This document shows positions 868 to 28,867 of a stretch of DNA of 29,023 nucleotides, piece by piece. The DNA lies in IMG/VR virus record IMGVR_UViG_3300037042_001675, positions 1-29,023 of that record. One strand, given 5' to 3'. The notes beneath the pieces were generated by a model. It saw nothing but the letters and a program-made list of their open reading frames with translations. It searched no databases and was not told the DNA's origin. The position numbers and the translations under genes were made by a program. Source of the stretch: a virus. The first letter of the stretch is position 1, and the number at the start of each line of letters is the position of its first letter.

Positions 868-937
868 CTAATTCCTTTATTTTACAAGGGTTTCAAAAAT
901 AATTTGTTAAAAAATGCAAAAATTTGTCAATAAAGTT

Positions 938-967
938 TTGCATATATGAAAATGTTATATATCTTTG
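938..967 (+). promoter_or_regulatory. Host-type (Bacteroidota housekeeping) promoter P1
   Basis: TTG at 938-940, a 19-base spacer and TATCTTTG at 960-967 match the Bacteroidota -33/-7 consensus TTG-N19-TAnnTTTG. The spacer begins with the palindrome CATATATG (941-948). The sequence after the box (TAAGGTCAATA, then GCAAAAC) is shared with promoter P2 at 5499-5528. It lies in the ~130-base gap before the gene at 1001 and probably drives the genes up to the terminator at 2498. A further identical copy is at 28838-28867. Confidence 0.82.
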
Positions 968-8605: not shown

Positions 8606-8802
8606 ATCTCATTGAGAAAATTGACCAATTACCTGAAGCTCTCAGGTATTCAAAGCAGTCATGCGTTCAGCTCTATAAGATACGGGTAAAATATGATGGC
8701 CCACAGCCTCGGGAGTGCTTTTGTGCATCCGTGAGGCGTAAGGTATGGTATAAGGATTTTCAAATCTGGTATGAAAAATCTCTTAGATCAGTACATCTCT
8801 GA
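8584..8802 (+). CDS. Small unknown protein upstream of sigma-like gene
   Basis: A 72-residue protein with a helical acidic N-terminus (LDLIEKIDQLPEALRYSKQ) and a basic aromatic C-terminus containing RECFCASVRRKVWYKDFQIWY. The Cys-Phe-Cys pair and basic patch could bind nucleic acid, but no family is recognised. Long overlaps: 22 bases with the gene before and 32 with the sigma-like gene after. Confidence 0.58.
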   Translation: MFEQTELDLIEKIDQLPEALRYSKQSCVQLYKIRVKYDGPQPRECFCASVRRKVWYKDFQIWYEKSLRSVHL

Positions 8803-9313
8803 GCATTACCAGGAGGTGAGAGCTTATACCCTGTATTTTTTACAGCGTACTAAATCTACGATGGAAGTGGATACAGTTATTAACAATAGTTACCTGCACG
8901 TTATTAACATTCATGAGAGCCAGAAGGATATTGATATAGTCAAGAGCTACCTTTTAAATACCATTAAATACCAAATCCTTTGGACCACATCCAAAAGCCA
9001 TCGAGACGATGCCATCACGGCAATAGATGGGACACATAATGAGGTGGAGGATGAGCAGGATTTGAAGGATAAAGTAAGGGAGGATATCCAATATAGCCAT
9101 CAAAAGGCACTCATTGAAATGTACAGGGCAAAGATAGAGGATAACGTGCATCGAATTGTATTTGAGGCCTATATTGATAAGGGATACACCACAGCCAGGG
9201 CAATGGCTAAGTACTTTGGCATCACGGTAACCTCTGCCCATTACCTAATTAAAGAAATTAAACAAAATCTTAACTCAATGCAATATAGGTATGAGACCAT
9301 CGCAACTATTTAG
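8771..9313 (+). CDS. Divergent sigma-factor-like protein, candidate late regulator
   Basis: A 180-residue protein with the two-part layout of a small (ECF-type) sigma factor. Residues ~10-75 are helical and look like region 2: YTLYFLQRTKSTMEVDTVINNSYLHVI, then IVKSYLLNTIKYQILW. A charged linker follows (80-108). Residues ~123-168 look like the region 4 HTH: HRIVFEAYIDKGYTTARAMAKYFGITVTSAHYLIKEIKQNL. It is the last gene before the structural genes, and its 3' end contains the first of five copies of a shared late promoter-like motif. Inference: it directs host RNA polymerase to phage late genes. Alternative: a simple HTH activator. Similarity to known sigma factors is weak by eye. Confidence 0.6.
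   Translation: MKNLLDQYISEHYQEVRAYTLYFLQRTKSTMEVDTVINNSYLHVINIHESQKDIDIVKSYLLNTIKYQILWTTSKSHRDDAITAIDGTHNEVEDEQDLKDKVREDIQYSHQKALIEMYRAKIEDNVHRIVFEAYIDKGYTTARAMAKYFGITVTSAHYLIKEIKQNLNSMQYRYETIATI
9261..9293 (+). promoter_or_regulatory. Late promoter-like motif PL1
   Basis: ATTAAACA ending at 9264, 16-base spacer, CAATATAGG at 9281-9289, one T, then ATG 9291. It sits inside the last codons of the sigma-like gene and heads the head/packaging unit (9291-11912). First of five matching sites. Confidence 0.68.
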
Positions 9314-9455
9314 CATCATGGCAATGTTCACGGCATTCTCGGTAGGGCTATCTCTTATCTGGGAAAGCTATACATGGGCTAGCAAGGGGGCAGGCGTATG
9401 GATTTTACTATATTACATTTGGCTAATAACATCAGAATATGAAAATCAAGAATGA
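9291..9455 (+). CDS. Small membrane protein, first late gene
   Basis: ATG 9291, directly after late motif PL1, gives 54 residues (MRPSQLFSIMAMFTAFSVG...). ATG 9318 is an internal alternative (45 residues). Two hydrophobic stretches, FSIMAMFTAFSVGLSLIW and GVWILLYYIWLITS, allow one or two membrane spans. The start overlaps the sigma-like gene by 23 bases and the stop overlaps the next gene by 17. The motif at the start decides for 9291. Function unknown. Confidence 0.58.
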   Translation: MRPSQLFSIMAMFTAFSVGLSLIWESYTWASKGAGVWILLYYIWLITSEYENQE

Positions 9456-11913: not shown

Positions 11914-11946
11914 AACAAATCAGCAGGATAGGATAATATAGGTATG
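11914..11946 (+). promoter_or_regulatory. Late promoter-like motif PL2
   Basis: TTTTAAAAACA ending at 11917, 16-base spacer, TAATATAGG 11934-11942, one T, ATG 11944. Lies in the 31-base gap after the terminase gene and heads the tail unit. Confidence 0.72.
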
Positions 11947-18702: not shown

Positions 18703-19133
18703 TAAGTTTGCAAAGTATAATTAACAATGTGGTGAACTTCTATTCACAGCACAAACAGGTAAAGAAAGTCGGTAGCGATTTCAAAGAACAGTTATTTAAC
18801 TTCGCTACCCAGGATGAGAAATACCCTATCATTTTTATTGTGCCTGATGCTGTTATCCCTACCGAGAACACTACTGAATTTACCCTGGATATTTACTGCT
18901 ATGATATAATTCAAAAGGACAGGGCTAACATCATAACCATCCTAAGTGATTGCCATCAGATCCTGAATGATTTGTATGTATATTATTTTTTCGGTATTGA
19001 CAGGAGCATGGATGTTATCGGGGTGCCTACCTTTACCGCATTGAATAATGATTTACTAGATTATGCGGCAGGGTATCAGATGAGTATTACCTTTGCACTT
19101 AATGACTGGACCGATTGCGCTGTACCGATTTAA
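18699..19133 (+). CDS. Tail terminator/completion-like protein
   Basis: A 144-residue alpha/beta protein: helix SLQSIINNVVNFYSQHKQV, strand-rich KYPIIFIVPDAVIPTENTTEFTLDIYCYDII, then helix NIITILSDCHQILNDLYVYY, and a final strand-rich part ending NDWTDCAVPI. The order helix, strands, helix, strands resembles tail terminator/completion proteins of siphoviruses, and similar proteins accompany tape measure genes in Bacteroidota phages. Assignment is by layout, not by a diagnostic motif. Last gene of the PL2 unit. Confidence 0.5.
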   Translation: MISLQSIINNVVNFYSQHKQVKKVGSDFKEQLFNFATQDEKYPIIFIVPDAVIPTENTTEFTLDIYCYDIIQKDRANIITILSDCHQILNDLYVYYFFGIDRSMDVIGVPTFTALNNDLLDYAAGYQMSITFALNDWTDCAVPI

Positions 19134-19165
19134 ACATTTGCCCTGGTTAATGTAATATAGGTATG
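19131..19165 (+). promoter_or_regulatory. Late promoter-like motif PL3
   Basis: TTTAAACA ending at 19136, 16-base spacer, TAATATAGG 19153-19161, one T, ATG 19163. It overlaps the stop of the preceding gene and heads the fibre-like unit. Confidence 0.7.
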
Positions 19166-19936: not shown

Positions 19937-20381
19937 ATACGCAAAAAACGGAGTATTTAACATCCTTTACCCTACCAGGAGAAGGATGGCCACGATCTTA
20001 AAAAGAATCATTAGGCAGAACGGCCTAGTAGATACCCGTACTTTGGAGGATAGCGTGAGAATAAACGCACAAATAACAGGCTTCAGTACCCTTGAGATTG
20101 AGATCGTGGCGATGTATTACTTTATATTTCTAAACAATGGTGCTTTCCTTTGGAATGGAGGGGTAATACCTCCTTATAATTTGGTTCGCCAATTTACCGA
20201 TGAGCTAACAAGTGCAGGAATAATAACAGAAATATACAGCCAATATACTGAATGGCTTACAAAAAATTACCCTATCCTAGAGATTGTGCCTATCTTAGAA
20301 GAGGAGCAAAGCATTGTATATAACTTCTATGCCCTAGATGCACCGCCTGATTTCACTCCAGGCTTTCCGCTAGATGTTTAA
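19929..20381 (+). CDS. Unknown virion-region protein
   Basis: ATG 19929 (150 residues, MPRYAKNGVFNILYPTRRRM) is chosen over an upstream TTG 19905, because it overlaps the previous gene by only 8 bases. A basic N-terminus is followed by a helical middle (STLEIEIVAMYYFIFLNNGAFLWNGG) and an acidic, proline-rich C-terminus. No family recognised. Located between fibre and antisense chaperone-like genes, a tail assembly role is plausible. Its end overlaps the convergent gene's end by 12 bases, with no obvious terminator between the two. Confidence 0.62.
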   Translation: MPRYAKNGVFNILYPTRRRMATILKRIIRQNGLVDTRTLEDSVRINAQITGFSTLEIEIVAMYYFIFLNNGAFLWNGGVIPPYNLVRQFTDELTSAGIITEIYSQYTEWLTKNYPILEIVPILEEEQSIVYNFYALDAPPDFTPGFPLDV

Positions 20382-21110
20382 CTCTTTCTTCATTCCTATC
20401 ATATTGAAAACAAAAGTAAGTTTTAGCTTACCTAGCTTCTCAGCTTTGGTTAAATCACCATTGCATAGGCTGTAGATCATTTGCTCCCATGACCATTTCG
20501 AGGCTTTTTTTTCCGCTTCAATTTCATCGAGCTCCTCCTTAGTTAGCTTTGCTTTCTCCTCATCAGATAGATCCGTATCATCCACATCTCCAAATAAATT
20601 TTTGTACGTTTCGTAAAAGTGCTTACGGAACTTTATGAACTCATTAATAATGCCGTAGATATCTGTGATGGGTAGATCTAGGAACTGCTCAGCCCTATTG
20701 TTAAGGTCAAAATCATACGGCTCCATGACCTCCTCCTGCCATTCGTTAAGGCGTACTTTCCTGTACAGGATAGCACAAATCTTATCTAGGTTATCCACAT
20801 AGTCATTAGTGAACAAGTACTCAAGGTCTATCCATTCATACAGCTCTAGCTTACTGAAGGCCTTGAGCTTCAACCCCAGCACCTCATCCTGGTATCTATT
20901 GGGTGGCTGATGGCTATACCAATTGACCTGCTTAATTAAGGCATTGAGCTCATCAATCTCGAGCTCCTCAATGATTTCAATATTAACATCGGCTAAAATA
21001 GAAAGGGCCTCACTATTGTAGTGATAGGCCCCTTGCGTTTTATCTATTTTACTTATCTCGATGAACTGCTCAAGCGTTACTTGGCTCCAGCTCTGGGGTA
21101 GCTTCAGCAT
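20370..21110 (-). CDS. Tail assembly chaperone-like protein 2 (minus strand)
   Basis: A 246-residue acidic helical protein: LPQSWSQVTLEQFIEISKI, SILADVNIEIIEELEIDELNALI, KLELYEWIDLEYLF, DKICAILYRKV, and a long charged C-terminus (DVDDTDLSDEEKAKLTKEELDEIEAEKKASKWSW is the acidic stretch). Its first ~190 residues line up by eye with the neighbour gene 21070-21624: both have xTxEQF near the start, an IDxxDxI/L helix, a short strand, then an ILY/VMFK block. So they look like tandem paralogs. Tail chaperones of this type are helical and adjoin tape measure genes. It is in the +1 frame of its neighbour, overlapping 41 bases. Confidence 0.6.
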   Translation of the reverse strand: MLKLPQSWSQVTLEQFIEISKIDKTQGAYHYNSEALSILADVNIEIIEELEIDELNALIKQVNWYSHQPPNRYQDEVLGLKLKAFSKLELYEWIDLEYLFTNDYVDNLDKICAILYRKVRLNEWQEEVMEPYDFDLNNRAEQFLDLPITDIYGIINEFIKFRKHFYETYKNLFGDVDDTDLSDEEKAKLTKEELDEIEAEKKASKWSWEQMIYSLCNGDLTKAEKLGKLKLTFVFNMIGMKKELNI

Positions 21111-21624
21111 TTTTAAACTGTTGGTTTACTTTATTGGCTATGTACATCACATACGGGATAGAAATATCCGCACTCATTTTGCAAATGAATTTAGCTTTGT
21201 GTTTAATGTGGGCCTCTGCGTAGTGTTCAGCAGGGGTTAGATCCTCACGTTTAAACATGACTGCCATCATTTGGCTGATGTAGTTTTTAGGCTTCTCGAT
21301 TGCTAGCTTCTCGATGTGCTTAGTATCTCTAACCGTTAGCTTCATCTGAGCCGTATAGGTGTAACCATCTATCTCGATGGTATCAATGGTAGGATAGTCA
21401 ATGTTTTTATCCAGGCTATTGAAGGCCTTTACCATCTCGATAAAATCTGAGATATCCACATCCCAAAATTCCTTTTCAGGTATGCCTAGATATTCAAAGA
21501 TTTTCAGGTGCTTATCTACAGCATCTAGGTCCTTATTATTATTGATCTCTGTGATCATTTCGAACTGCTCAATGGTGAGCTCTTTCATTTGGTTCGGGAT
21601 CTCTTTCCCTAGGATTGTAATCAT
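21070..21624 (-). CDS. Tail assembly chaperone-like protein 1 (minus strand)
   Basis: A 184-residue acidic protein beginning MITILGKEIPNQMKELTIEQFEMITEI, then KIFEYLGIPEKEFWDVDISDFIEMV, a beta hairpin (YPTIDTIEIDGYTYTAQMKLTV), RDTKHIEKLA, and a helical half (YISQMMAVMFKREDLTPAEHYAEAHI). This resembles tail chaperones that are followed by a second frame-shifted chaperone gene. It is unusual in being on the minus strand while every other gene is on the plus strand. A host-type -7 box (21639-21646, minus) precedes it by ~15 bases with an A-rich leader. Function is inferred from layout and position. Confidence 0.6.
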   Translation of the reverse strand: MITILGKEIPNQMKELTIEQFEMITEINNNKDLDAVDKHLKIFEYLGIPEKEFWDVDISDFIEMVKAFNSLDKNIDYPTIDTIEIDGYTYTAQMKLTVRDTKHIEKLAIEKPKNYISQMMAVMFKREDLTPAEHYAEAHIKHKAKFICKMSADISIPYVMYIANKVNQQFKNAEATPELEPSNA

Positions 21625-21636
21625 AATTTTTTTTTT

Positions 21637-21670
21637 AACAAATATAAGAAAATTCTAATATAGGTAAATG
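21637..21670 (+). promoter_or_regulatory. Late promoter-like motif PL4
   Basis: TTTTAACA ending at 21640, 15-base spacer, TAATATAGG 21656-21664, then TAA and ATG 21668 (three bases before the ATG instead of one). It lies in the 43-base divergent gap and heads the capsid unit; its upstream box overlaps the minus-strand -7 box. Confidence 0.62.
21639..21646 (-). promoter_or_regulatory. Host-type -7 box for the minus-strand chaperone-like genes
   Basis: On the minus strand the sequence reads TATATTTG, fitting TAnnTTTG. The -33 position 19 bases upstream reads TTT instead of TTG, so it is a weak match. Transcription would start about 10 bases before the ATG at 21624, in a poly-A leader. Confidence 0.5.
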
Positions 21671-22642
21671 GCAGAAAAAAATATCCCTACCTATAAGATA
21701 ACCATTGACCCAGCCTATGCTGAGAATGGTGAAGATCTTGGTATTGAACAAATAGCATTCACGGCAAATCCTGCCATTAAGGTAAAAGGGATGGCCTTCT
21801 CAAGTGAAGCTAAGCCAATGTTTTTTTCAGATGAACTAAAGTACCGCATCACGGCCCCTGCATTAATACCAATGGATATCTATCGTTATGATGATGACGC
21901 CAAACAGGAGTATTTTGTACAATTTACTAAGGAGGAGATAGAGAACATCCACGGTAAATTCATGAGGGATATGGTCAATAGAGACCTATTCAATCTTGAG
22001 CATGATACTGAGAAAACAGTACCTGCCTATGTGCTTGAGGCCTGGATTGTGGAGAACCCGAAAAAGGATAAAGCATATAGCTCTTTTGGTATCGAGGTGC
22101 CAGAAGGTACATTGATGGTAACGGCACAGGTAACGGATAAGGAATACTACGCAGAACTAGTTAGCCAAGAGCAAATTGGCTTTTCCATCGAGGGGTATTT
22201 AGGCATGAAATTAAGCGAGCAAACCAATAAAACAAAAATAAATATGAACAAGTTACCCGATGGCGAGCACCTAATCGAGGGTAAAATCTACGTCGTAAAA
22301 GATGGAGAGGTTATCGAGATTAAGGAAGTCGACAAAGTAGAAGCCTCTGAAGAGGTAGCTCTTGAGGATACGGTAGTGGAGGAAGAGGAAACAGTTGAAA
22401 CAACTGAAGAGGAAACTATGGCTGTAGATCCAGAGCTAGATGCTGAGGCAGTATTGGCAATTGTTAAGCCAGCTATTGAAGAGCAGGTTAATGCATTAGT
22501 AGCTATGATTGCTGATTTGCAAAACCAATTAGATCAAGCTCTAACTCCAGAGATGGAAGAGGAGGAAGTGGAGATGAGTGAGGCTGTAGCTCTTAGCGTA
22601 CAGCAGAGATTTAGTAACGTAAATAAATTTATAAACAAATAA
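21668..22642 (+). CDS. XkdF-like head maturation protease fused to scaffold region
   Basis: A 324-residue protein. Residues ~1-185 resemble the XkdF-type putative serine protease of phage heads: IEQIAFTANPAIKVKGMAF, then NLEHDTEKTVPAYVLEAWIV (candidate His in LEHD), and QIGFSIEGYL (candidate Ser in F-S-I-E-G). Next comes an LPDGEHLIEGKIYVVKDGEVIEI beta motif often seen in such proteins. From ~230 on the sequence is very acidic (long Glu/Val runs) with a coiled coil (QVNALVAMIADLQNQLDQAL), typical of a scaffold. So protease and scaffold appear joined. It directly precedes the capsid gene and late motif PL4 lies at its start. Confidence 0.8.
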   Translation: MAEKNIPTYKITIDPAYAENGEDLGIEQIAFTANPAIKVKGMAFSSEAKPMFFSDELKYRITAPALIPMDIYRYDDDAKQEYFVQFTKEEIENIHGKFMRDMVNRDLFNLEHDTEKTVPAYVLEAWIVENPKKDKAYSSFGIEVPEGTLMVTAQVTDKEYYAELVSQEQIGFSIEGYLGMKLSEQTNKTKINMNKLPDGEHLIEGKIYVVKDGEVIEIKEVDKVEASEEVALEDTVVEEEETVETTEEETMAVDPELDAEAVLAIVKPAIEEQVNALVAMIADLQNQLDQALTPEMEEEEVEMSEAVALSVQQRFSNVNKFINK

Positions 22643-22646
22643 CAAA

Positions 22647-23567
22647 ATGAGAAAGTTAAAATTCGATTTGAATATCGACCCAACTGCTTTATTAGCAGCA
22701 AACCCTGAGGCATTCTACTCTAAGGCATATTTGTCTGAGGATACTGCCGACAATTACCGAGCTCTTCCTGGAGTAAAGTACAAAACTAAATTAGCTTCTG
22801 TTACTTTTGGTAACATCCTACAGGCTTCTAGCTGTGCCTTTACCGCTCCAACTGATGACCTAGATGCTAAAGAAATTGACGTATGTGCTCTTTCTGCAAT
22901 GGCTCAGATTTGTCAATTTGACCTTGAGCAATCATTCCTTTCTTTGCAGATGAGCAAAGGATCAAATGGTGATTTCTCTGTAGCTTCTTTCATGAGCTTC
23001 TACTGGTCTGAAATGGCTAATAAAATCAATGGAGATCTTGAGAGCATCCGCTGGCAAGGTGATACAGCTTCTTTGAACCCTACACTTGCATTGTGTGATG
23101 GTTACGAAAAATTATTAGGAGCTGTAGGTTCAGGTGTTATCAATGGAGGAACTGGTGCTATTGCTAACTTTACAGCTCTTGAGGCTGCATTATCTGCTGC
23201 ATTTGCTTTGTTACCTGCTACTATTGCAACCAGAACTGCTGATTTACGTTTATATATGCCTACACAATTGGTTAACATCTACCGATTAGGGGTAGCATCT
23301 GGTAACACCCAGGCATACATCACTCAGGATCTAGCGTTAACATTCTTAGGTGTTAAAATCGTAGTTTGTCCAGGGATGTCTAACAACACTTTTGTATGGA
23401 CTTTGAAAGATAACCTTATCTATGCTTTCGATGCTGAAGGTGATAGCTCTGATTTGCGTGCTGTTAACTTGGCTGATACTGTAGCTGAGCCTTACATCCG
23501 TACTCGTGCTAACATGAAGGTAGGTTTCAACTTCGTTAACCCAGGAGAGATCGTATTCTATTCATAA
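22647..23567 (+). CDS. Major capsid protein (HK97-fold type)
   Basis: A 306-residue protein, four bases after the protease-scaffold gene. Features: acidic early part, then DNYRALPGVKYKTKLASVTFG, CQFDLEQSFLSLQMSKG, a helical spine-like segment (FMSFYWSEMANKINGDLESIRWQGD), and an Ala-rich region before RLYMPTQLVNIYRLG and LGVKIVVCPGMSNNTFVW, the usual end of HK97-type capsid proteins of Bacteroidota phages. Codon use is distinct (many GCT, TCT, GGT), as expected for a very highly made protein. No obvious delta domain of full length at the N-terminus, which fits a separate scaffold region on the protease. A stem-loop follows the stop. Confidence 0.88.
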   Translation: MRKLKFDLNIDPTALLAANPEAFYSKAYLSEDTADNYRALPGVKYKTKLASVTFGNILQASSCAFTAPTDDLDAKEIDVCALSAMAQICQFDLEQSFLSLQMSKGSNGDFSVASFMSFYWSEMANKINGDLESIRWQGDTASLNPTLALCDGYEKLLGAVGSGVINGGTGAIANFTALEAALSAAFALLPATIATRTADLRLYMPTQLVNIYRLGVASGNTQAYITQDLALTFLGVKIVVCPGMSNNTFVWTLKDNLIYAFDAEGDSSDLRAVNLADTVAEPYIRTRANMKVGFNFVNPGEIVFYS

Positions 23568-24152: not shown

Positions 24153-24171
24153 TCAGCTCCACATATATCTA

Positions 24172-24200
24172 AAGGCCCTCAGCAATGGGGGCTTTTTTTT
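24172..24200 (+). terminator. Strong intrinsic terminator after the tube-like gene
   Basis: AAGGCCCTC (24172-24180) pairs with GGGGGCTTT (24187-24195), loop AGCAAT, then eight T (24193-24200). The core CTCAGCAATGGGGGCT is identical to that at 23582-23597. The T tract runs straight into the upstream box of late motif PL5. Confidence 0.82.
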
Positions 24201-24234
24201 AACATTCTTTTAGGTATTGAATAATATAGGTATG
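24198..24234 (+). promoter_or_regulatory. Late promoter-like motif PL5
   Basis: TTTTAACA ending at 24204, 17-base spacer, TAATATAGG 24222-24230, one T, ATG 24232. It restarts transcription right after the terminator, for the portal and lysis unit. Confidence 0.72.
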
Positions 24235-27521: not shown

Positions 27522-27991
27522 GGTACCTGATACCATTATTATTATTGATATCCTGCTCAGCTCCTAAGCGGGCCCAGTATCATTACAAGCGAGCCCTGGC
27601 TAATGGGCTTAAAATTGAGGTAGCTACTGATACAATCAAAGTGCTGAAGGTGGATAGCTTCCCTGTTATTGTTAATGATACCATAGTATGGGAAAAAGTT
27701 ATCTCATATCACGATACGGTAATACGTTACCAAAATCAAATCGTAGAAATCCCTAAAACGAGATGGCAAACCAGGATAGAGTACCGTGAGAGGGTAAAGA
27801 TTGAGAAAATCAAAGGAGCTACTGAGGTAAAGGTAATTAAAGAGCAGGCAAAGATAGCAAAGGCAACTAAGGAGGTAAAGTACCGCACTAGGTGGTGGCC
27901 ATTTGTTGTGGGTTTAATCATAGGTTTAATCATACCTTATCTATTACAAGGTGGCCTATTAGATAGGATATCCCTGTGGCGTAAATTATGA
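27518..27991 (+). CDS. Unimolecular (u-)spanin
   Basis: A 157-residue protein with both anchors: an N-terminal lipoprotein signal with lipobox L10-I-S-C13 (MRYLIPLLLLISC), a periplasmic middle of ~110 residues with heptad-like and basic helical stretches (RIEYRERVKIEKIK), and a C-terminal membrane span (about 126-144, WWPFVVGLIIGLIIPYLL) with a short basic tail. This outer-lipoprotein plus inner-membrane layout is that of u-spanins, such as T1 gp11, that fuse the two membranes in the last step of lysis. No separate i-/o-spanin pair is visible. Its ATG overlaps the endolysin-like stop, and its stop overlaps the exonuclease start. Confidence 0.78.
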   Translation: MRYLIPLLLLISCSAPKRAQYHYKRALANGLKIEVATDTIKVLKVDSFPVIVNDTIVWEKVISYHDTVIRYQNQIVEIPKTRWQTRIEYRERVKIEKIKGATEVKVIKEQAKIAKATKEVKYRTRWWPFVVGLIIGLIIPYLLQGGLLDRISLWRKL

Positions 27992-28767
27992 TAAGAAAAA
28001 GATTGTTTTACGACATTGAAACCTCTTTCAATGTTGGGGTATTCTGGAGAACAGGCTACAACATCAATATAAATCCTCAGGATATCATTCATGAGAGGGC
28101 CATCATTTGTATATGTTATAAGTGGGAAGGTGAGGATGAGATTCACAGCCTAACCTGGTCAAAGAACCAGAGTGATAAGGCCATGTTAAAGGAATTTACC
28201 AAACTATTGGCACAGGCTGATGAGATAGTGGCTCACAATGGTGATAGATTTGACCTCAAATGGATACGCACACGGGCCTTAATTCACGGCATTGATGTTA
28301 TGCCTCATCCGAAAACTATTGATACCCTTAAACTTGCTAAAAAGTACTTTAATTTCAATAGCAATAAACTCGACTACATTGCTAAATTTCTTCAGGTAGG
28401 TGCTAAGATGGAAACGGGAGGGCTTGACCTTTGGAAAGATATAGTATTTCGTAAAGATCAGCAGGCCCTGGATAAGATGGTGGAATATTGTAAGATGGAT
28501 GTACAGGTACTTGAGAAGGTATATAATAAGATACAAGGATATACATTACCTCAGCACAATTATGCAGTACAGCATGGAGGCGATAGGTATGAATGTGTAG
28601 AATGTGGGGGTACAAACTATCAATATAACAAAAAGGTAGTTACCAGAGCAGGCACCGTACACCATTGGGTAAAATGTAAGGACTGCAACAGCTACAATAA
28701 GTTAAGCCAACTGGTATTTAGTAAATATCAGGAGTACATATACAGAAAAAAGAAAAATATTTTCTAG
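27988..28767 (+). CDS. DnaQ-like exonuclease, second copy
   Basis: Full-length 259-residue second version of the exonuclease at 88-867. All catalytic and zinc-ribbon residues are conserved. Residue differences: Asp50, Gln159, Glu166, Gly184, Lys231, Asn234 in this copy. About 70 base differences with only 6 changed residues mean that both versions have been under selection for protein sequence. It is coupled to the u-spanin stop by ATGA, so in a circular genome this would be the last gene of the PL5 late unit. Confidence 0.85.
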   Translation: MIRKRLFYDIETSFNVGVFWRTGYNININPQDIIHERAIICICYKWEGEDEIHSLTWSKNQSDKAMLKEFTKLLAQADEIVAHNGDRFDLKWIRTRALIHGIDVMPHPKTIDTLKLAKKYFNFNSNKLDYIAKFLQVGAKMETGGLDLWKDIVFRKDQQALDKMVEYCKMDVQVLEKVYNKIQGYTLPQHNYAVQHGGDRYECVECGGTNYQYNKKVVTRAGTVHHWVKCKDCNSYNKLSQLVFSKYQEYIYRKKKNIF

Positions 28768-28837
28768 CTAATTCCTTTATTTTACAAGGGTTTCAAAAAT
28801 AATTTGTTAAAAAATGCAAAAATTTGTCAATAAAGTT

Positions 28838-28867
28838 TTGCATATATGAAAATGTTATATATCTTTG
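28838..28867 (+). promoter_or_regulatory. Host-type promoter P1, second copy
   Basis: TTG 28838-28840, 19-base spacer with CATATATG, TATCTTTG 28860-28867; identical to 938-967 together with its flanks. Confidence 0.82.

Follow-up and report, generated by a model that had tools for sequence, protein, structure and literature searches.

Interlocked Host-Type and Late Promoter Boxes in a Divergent Gap of an Uncultured Phage Group

It was found that two promoter signals of different classes share bases in a 43-base gap of a virus record of 29,023 bases, which was analyzed at its full length and is called the window here. A host-type -7 box on the minus strand and the upstream box of a late promoter motif on the plus strand have two bases in common. 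On balance, the gap probably holds a divergent pair of an early and a late promoter that occlude each other.

The window belongs to an uncultured, widespread freshwater phage group whose hosts are probably Bacteroidota. A BT4734-like primase domain, which is typical of Bacteroidota elements, is encoded in the window. Together with the Bacteroidota-type promoters and the distant kinship to the Nonlabens phages P12024S/L (portal identity of only 25%), this points to a Bacteroidota host. At the DNA level, no close named phages were found. All genes lie on the plus strand except two overlapping minus-strand ORFs (Table 1), and the 21 near-complete genomes of the group all share a common gene layout with the same operon reversed.

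Table 1. Positions of promoter signals and genes in the window and of the Tad1 homologue in related contigs
Feature	Position	Strand	Remark
Canonical host-type promoter TTTG-N19-TATCTTTG, early region	937..967	+	second copy 28837-28867
ECF-like sigma factor, proposed late factor	8771..9313	+	sigma2-like 2-84, sigma4-like 102-180 in model
Late motif copy 1	9261..9289	+	inside 3′ end of sigma-like gene; then ATG 9291
Late motif copy 2	11914..11942	+	motif match
Late motif copy 3	19133..19161	+	motif match
chap2, second gene of reversed operon, 246 aa	20370..21110	-	start overlaps chap1 end by 41 nt
chap1, first gene of reversed operon, 184 aa	21070..21624	-	putative function label
Divergent intergenic gap with both signals	21625..21667		43 bases between ORF 21070-21624 (-) and ORF 21668-22642 (+)
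Late motif copy 4	21637-21664	+	N16 spacer; in 43-base gap
AACA, upstream (-35-like) box of late copy 4	21637..21640	+	late motif match
Host-type -7 box TATATTTG, fits TAHHTTTG	21639..21646	-	sequence; kept in relatives
AATATAGG, downstream (-10-like) box of late copy 4	21657..21664	+	late motif match
Putative XkdF-type prohead protease, first gene behind late copy 4	21668..22642	+	Pfam PF14550, E=6.5e-9
Probable major capsid protein	22647..23567	+	phrog_1623 'virion structural protein', E=7e-13
Late motif copy 5	24201..24230	+	motif match
Tad1 homologue in contig L033	4603-4941		
Tad1 homologue in contig L021	3420-3758		
Tad1 homologue in contig L277	7737-8075		

Two Promoter Classes in the Divergent Gap

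The gap sequence is AATTTTTTTTTTAACAAATATAAGAAAATTCTAATATAGGTAA, with an A+T content of 88%. The minus box (read from 21646 to 21639) and the AACA of the plus strand share positions 21639-21640, while the late downstream box sits within the upstream region of the minus promoter. An earlier note, made from the letters of the window, had placed both boxes and their overlap in this gap, and its coordinates were right. It had also assigned the boxes to two promoter classes with the capsid genes on the plus side. This two-class reading is well supported: host-type sites are enriched in these genomes, the late class is found repeatedly ahead of structural genes, and a sigma-like gene co-occurs with it. 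The mutual exclusion and the switch that the note also proposed are inferences. A putative prohead protease gene and the gene of the probable major capsid protein lie directly behind late copy 4.

Could such boxes arise by chance in so AT-rich a gap? When the gap was shuffled, a minus-strand TAnnTTTG appeared in 4.4% of the shuffles, TATATTTG in 0.3%, and the late motif in none of 20,000. Thus, chance does not account for the late motif even when the motif is taken alone. A lone TAnnTTTG is weak evidence by itself in a gap of this composition, and the minus box is beyond chance because of its conservation. A scan of the region for sigma-70-type promoters gave matches at the shuffle level.

The Late Motif and a Candidate Late Sigma Factor

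AACA-N16-18-AATATAGG occurs five times in the window, always on the plus strand, against 0.13 expected (at least five matches in 0 of 100 shuffles). The motif was also found in 14 of the 17 relatives first tested, where the reversed pattern gave 0 matches, and AACA-N16-18-AATATA was present in all 22 members of a second relative set. In the 21 near-complete genomes, the late sites lie at homologous places, about five per relative, and AATATA is followed by a start codon, mostly 3 bases on. The late class is a bipartite motif that is repeated, more often than chance allows, ahead of late genes and on their coding strand. In the open-access literature searched, no description of these promoters was found. 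The late transcript is expected to start no more than a few bases ahead of the start codon, and thus the late mRNAs would be nearly leaderless. Leaderless mRNAs are rare in Flavobacteria, making up 5.5% of the mRNAs in F. psychrophilum (PMC9723704).

The first late site lies at the end of the sigma-like ORF. The structure model of the protein, which is about 180 residues long, has moderate confidence (pLDDT 74, pTM 0.42) and shows one domain with a sigma2 fold and another with a sigma4 fold: region 2 compares with RpoE at Z 8.2 (2.3 Å) and region 4 with sigma-H at Z 8.4 (2.3 Å). The best Foldseek matches of the model were nearly all sigma factors. A search against Pfam gave no significant match, and the sigma match in NCBIfam (E 0.07) was below the cut-off; the assignment is not established by sequence profiles by themselves. 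Of the 26 relatives searched, 25 have a homologue and only a 16 kb fragment lacks one; all the near-complete genomes encode the protein. Judging from the model, the ORF likely encodes an ECF-like sigma factor, and it is the likely late factor of the phage. The co-occurrence of the motif and the gene suggests that this protein reads the late motif.

The Proposed Minus Promoter Compared with Host-Type Promoters

Over the 21 genomes, TTTG-N18-21-TAnnTTTG occurs 36 times on the plus strand against 5.0 expected and 7 times on the minus strand. Several of the clearest of these host-type promoters are in the replication-gene half of the genome, and some clear ones have the same TATATTTG as the gap. 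Whereas the clear early promoters of the phage have a -33 TTTG, the minus promoter of the gap lacks it; TTTG was absent from the -33 region upstream of the minus box in every gap searched. In F. johnsoniae, the refined -7 consensus is TAHHTTTG with the transcript start 4-5 nt downstream, and the -33 TTTG element is much less evident (PMC6847099); thus, the element is not a strict requirement there. Compared with the primary-sigma promoters of Bacteroidota (TTTG / TAnnTTTG), the gap promoter is alike in that its box matches TAHHTTTG everywhere and its upstream region is AT-rich. It is unlike them in lacking the -33 TTTG and in having the box of another promoter in its upstream region. The minus transcript is predicted to start at about 21633-21634, with a leader of 9-10 nt, which is near the 21635 given in the earlier note.

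Conservation of Both Boxes in the Relatives

Since one gap pattern presupposed parts of both boxes, the counts relied on here are those from gaps anchored by their flanking genes; the lineages counted are related, and the counts are therefore not independent events. Each of the 21 near-complete genomes has a box fitting TAHHTTTG. The same box rule holds in two contigs that were binned in bacterial MAGs and were found after the rule had been formed. In 18 representative gaps, where chap1 identities go down to about 50%, all consensus bases of the minus box are invariant, while the adjoining spacer columns are conserved at 33-78%. The sole change is TATTTTTG in the gap of L108; it lies at a free position and still fits TAHHTTTG. 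The overlap of the two boxes is kept across the relatives, and conservation of the minus box does not depend on AACA: in four genomes (G035-G038), the late AACA has changed to TACA with the minus box intact. AATATA after AACA was found at 0 of 76 late sites elsewhere versus 17 of 17 scored gap copies with AACA.

The late copy in the gap is off-standard. Wherever a copy was scored, the spacer is one base short of the length usual for that genome (16 vs 17, or 17 vs 18), and the G035-G038 group departs through the altered -35-like box instead of the spacer. This would fit a trade-off between the two overlapping signals as well as a promoter tuned to lower strength. The same departure from the other copies of a genome would also fit a gap in which only the plus promoter is real; CAAATATA would then be a flank peculiar to the late promoter of the capsid genes, and the minus genes would be expressed from an unseen promoter or by readthrough. 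This is unlikely, since substitutions in the box respect the minus consensus, as at the free position in L108, and the box outlasts the loss of AACA. Readthrough also lacks a source, because the upstream neighbors on the minus strand run the opposite way.

The minus box was also considered as a ribosome-binding or leader signal. This was rejected; the box lies at a variable 12 to 22 nt from the start codon, and it keeps to the operon head, not to chap1, where a further gene has been inserted.

The Reversed Operon and an Inserted Tad1 Homologue

The label of the minus genes as chaperone-like, which came from the earlier note, is unproven. For the minus ORFs, Pfam gave no match and PHROG none of significance, and tblastn of chap1 in phage records gave no match. 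The model of chap1 is good (pLDDT 88), with no good match in the PDB, and its close structural kin are uncharacterised phage proteins only. In BFVD, tail-assembly chaperones appeared only at E values of at least 0.2, which is noise level, and the HK97 chaperone at E 7. Early-only use would be odd if the minus genes assist tail assembly. As a separate observation, the start of chap2 lies 41 nt inside chap1 (21070-21110) in another frame, and the two proteins begin with similar residues, which suggests an old duplication.

In three contigs (L021, L033, and G023), a gene of 113 aa lies between the -7 box and chap1. It is a homologue of Tad1, Thoeris anti-defense 1 (PDB 8kbb, E 3e-11; 41% identity to Tad1 of Bacillus phage SBSphiJ7). 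Thus, Tad1 is matched by the head gene of the minus operon in three relatives and is absent from the window. In the Tad1-bearing contigs, the -7 box stays at the operon head, and in G023 the box precedes the inserted gene. Since anti-Thoeris proteins are useful early, the insertion supports, short of proof, an early use of the minus promoter.

This early need argues against a bidirectional late promoter, in which the phage sigma factor would read both directions with no early/late switch. Such a promoter would account for the likeness of TATATTTGT to AATATAGGT at 6 of 9 positions in a direct comparison, and structural-type genes on both sides would suit a shared late timing. However, the minus strand has no AACA at 15-18 bases upstream of the box, and the TATTTTTG of L108 is closer to the host consensus than to AATATAGG. 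It is distinctly unlikely that the gap works in this way.

A Possible Early/Late Switch

In the favored reading of a divergent pair with mutual occlusion, the host primary sigma factor would use the -7-only minus promoter (TAHHTTTG) early in infection, and the resulting short-leader mRNA would cover the reversed two-gene operon. On the plus strand, the host core polymerase with the phage ECF-like sigma factor (ORF 8771-9313) would read AACA-N16-AATATAGG and produce a nearly leaderless mRNA for the protease and capsid genes. Because the -10-type box of each promoter lies in the upstream region of the other, one polymerase should exclude the other. Polymerase footprints of the usual size would overlap almost wholly, so that simultaneous occupancy of one DNA copy seems very unlikely. 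As the phage sigma factor accumulates, late initiation should occlude the minus promoter. Of this reading, the motifs, their overlap, the conservation of both boxes (that of the minus box also where AACA is lost), and the co-occurrence with the sigma-like gene are observations, while promoter activity, the pairing of sigma factors with boxes, exclusion, and timing are inferences.

It is possible, and is put forward tentatively, that the interlocked boxes themselves are the switch. The late sigma holoenzyme on its own promoter would sterically shut the host-sigma promoter with no dedicated repressor; the early operon would include a slot for anti-defence genes; and the off-standard late copy (one base short, or TACA) would be the price of keeping both boxes.

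Both promoters could also be real without forming a switch, each being used side by side on different genome copies, with the overlap as mere economy of space. Phage genomes are multi-copy late in infection, and gaps are short throughout this genome, with 1,654 non-coding bases in 29 kb. Against this, the same overlap is kept in all relatives, though the gap length and the spacer vary, and side-by-side use is fairly unlikely.

Comparison with Known Systems

Phage sigma factors with their own late promoters are already known, as are control regions with early and late promoters on opposite strands. The gp47 sigma factor of phage 7-11 has late promoters of the form GTAAtg-(16)-aCTA (PMC8948821). 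Like phage 7-11, the window phage has two-box late promoters ahead of structural genes, a sigma-like gene of its own, and early promoters of the host-sigma type. It is unlike phage 7-11 in its boxes (AACA / AATATAGG), in the downstream box ending about 3 nt from the start codon, in its much smaller genome, and in having a host of another phylum. In the phi29 control region, the A2c and A2b promoters are early and A3 is late, and p4 and p6 act with the host RNA polymerase (PMC3100819). The arrangement proposed for the window shares with phi29 a single control region that carries early and late promoters on opposite strands and switches timing. In contrast to phi29, which uses p4 and p6, two sigma classes and a direct overlap of the recognition boxes are proposed here. 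As far as the open-access literature shows, a host-type box interlocked with a phage-sigma box and conserved group-wide is new.

These findings give a testable transcription programme for an uncultured phage group, with host-type early promoters, a probable phage sigma factor, and a defined late promoter, whose motif also predicts gene starts. They also point to one conserved site where the early and late programmes would contend for shared bases. Should the exclusion prove true, this early/late switch would be very small and would work without a repressor.

Minor Observations on Late Sites and Genome Ends

An ORF of 54 aa (9291-9455) begins at the ATG directly after the late motif in the last codons of the sigma-like gene and is out of frame with that gene (CAA TAT AGG TAT GAG). 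Of the 21 genomes, 17 keep it as an ORF of 54-61 aa, and the G004/G009/G023/G027 group lacks it. For the gene listed with TTG 24217 as its start, ATG 24232, just 3′ of a late box, is most likely the true start. Upstream of it, a GC-rich terminator-like inverted repeat with a T-run (24170-24204) ends right at the AACA of late copy 5. The plus-strand gene upstream of the reversed operon is convergent with it and overlaps it by 12 bases (20370-20381); thus, unless a terminator intervenes, late transcripts begun at 19133 should continue into the reversed genes in antisense orientation. Finally, the two ends of the window carry near-identical but not exact copies (88-867 and 27988-28767), each with an exonuclease ORF that differs in a few residues, as in a circularly permuted or mixed-population assembly.
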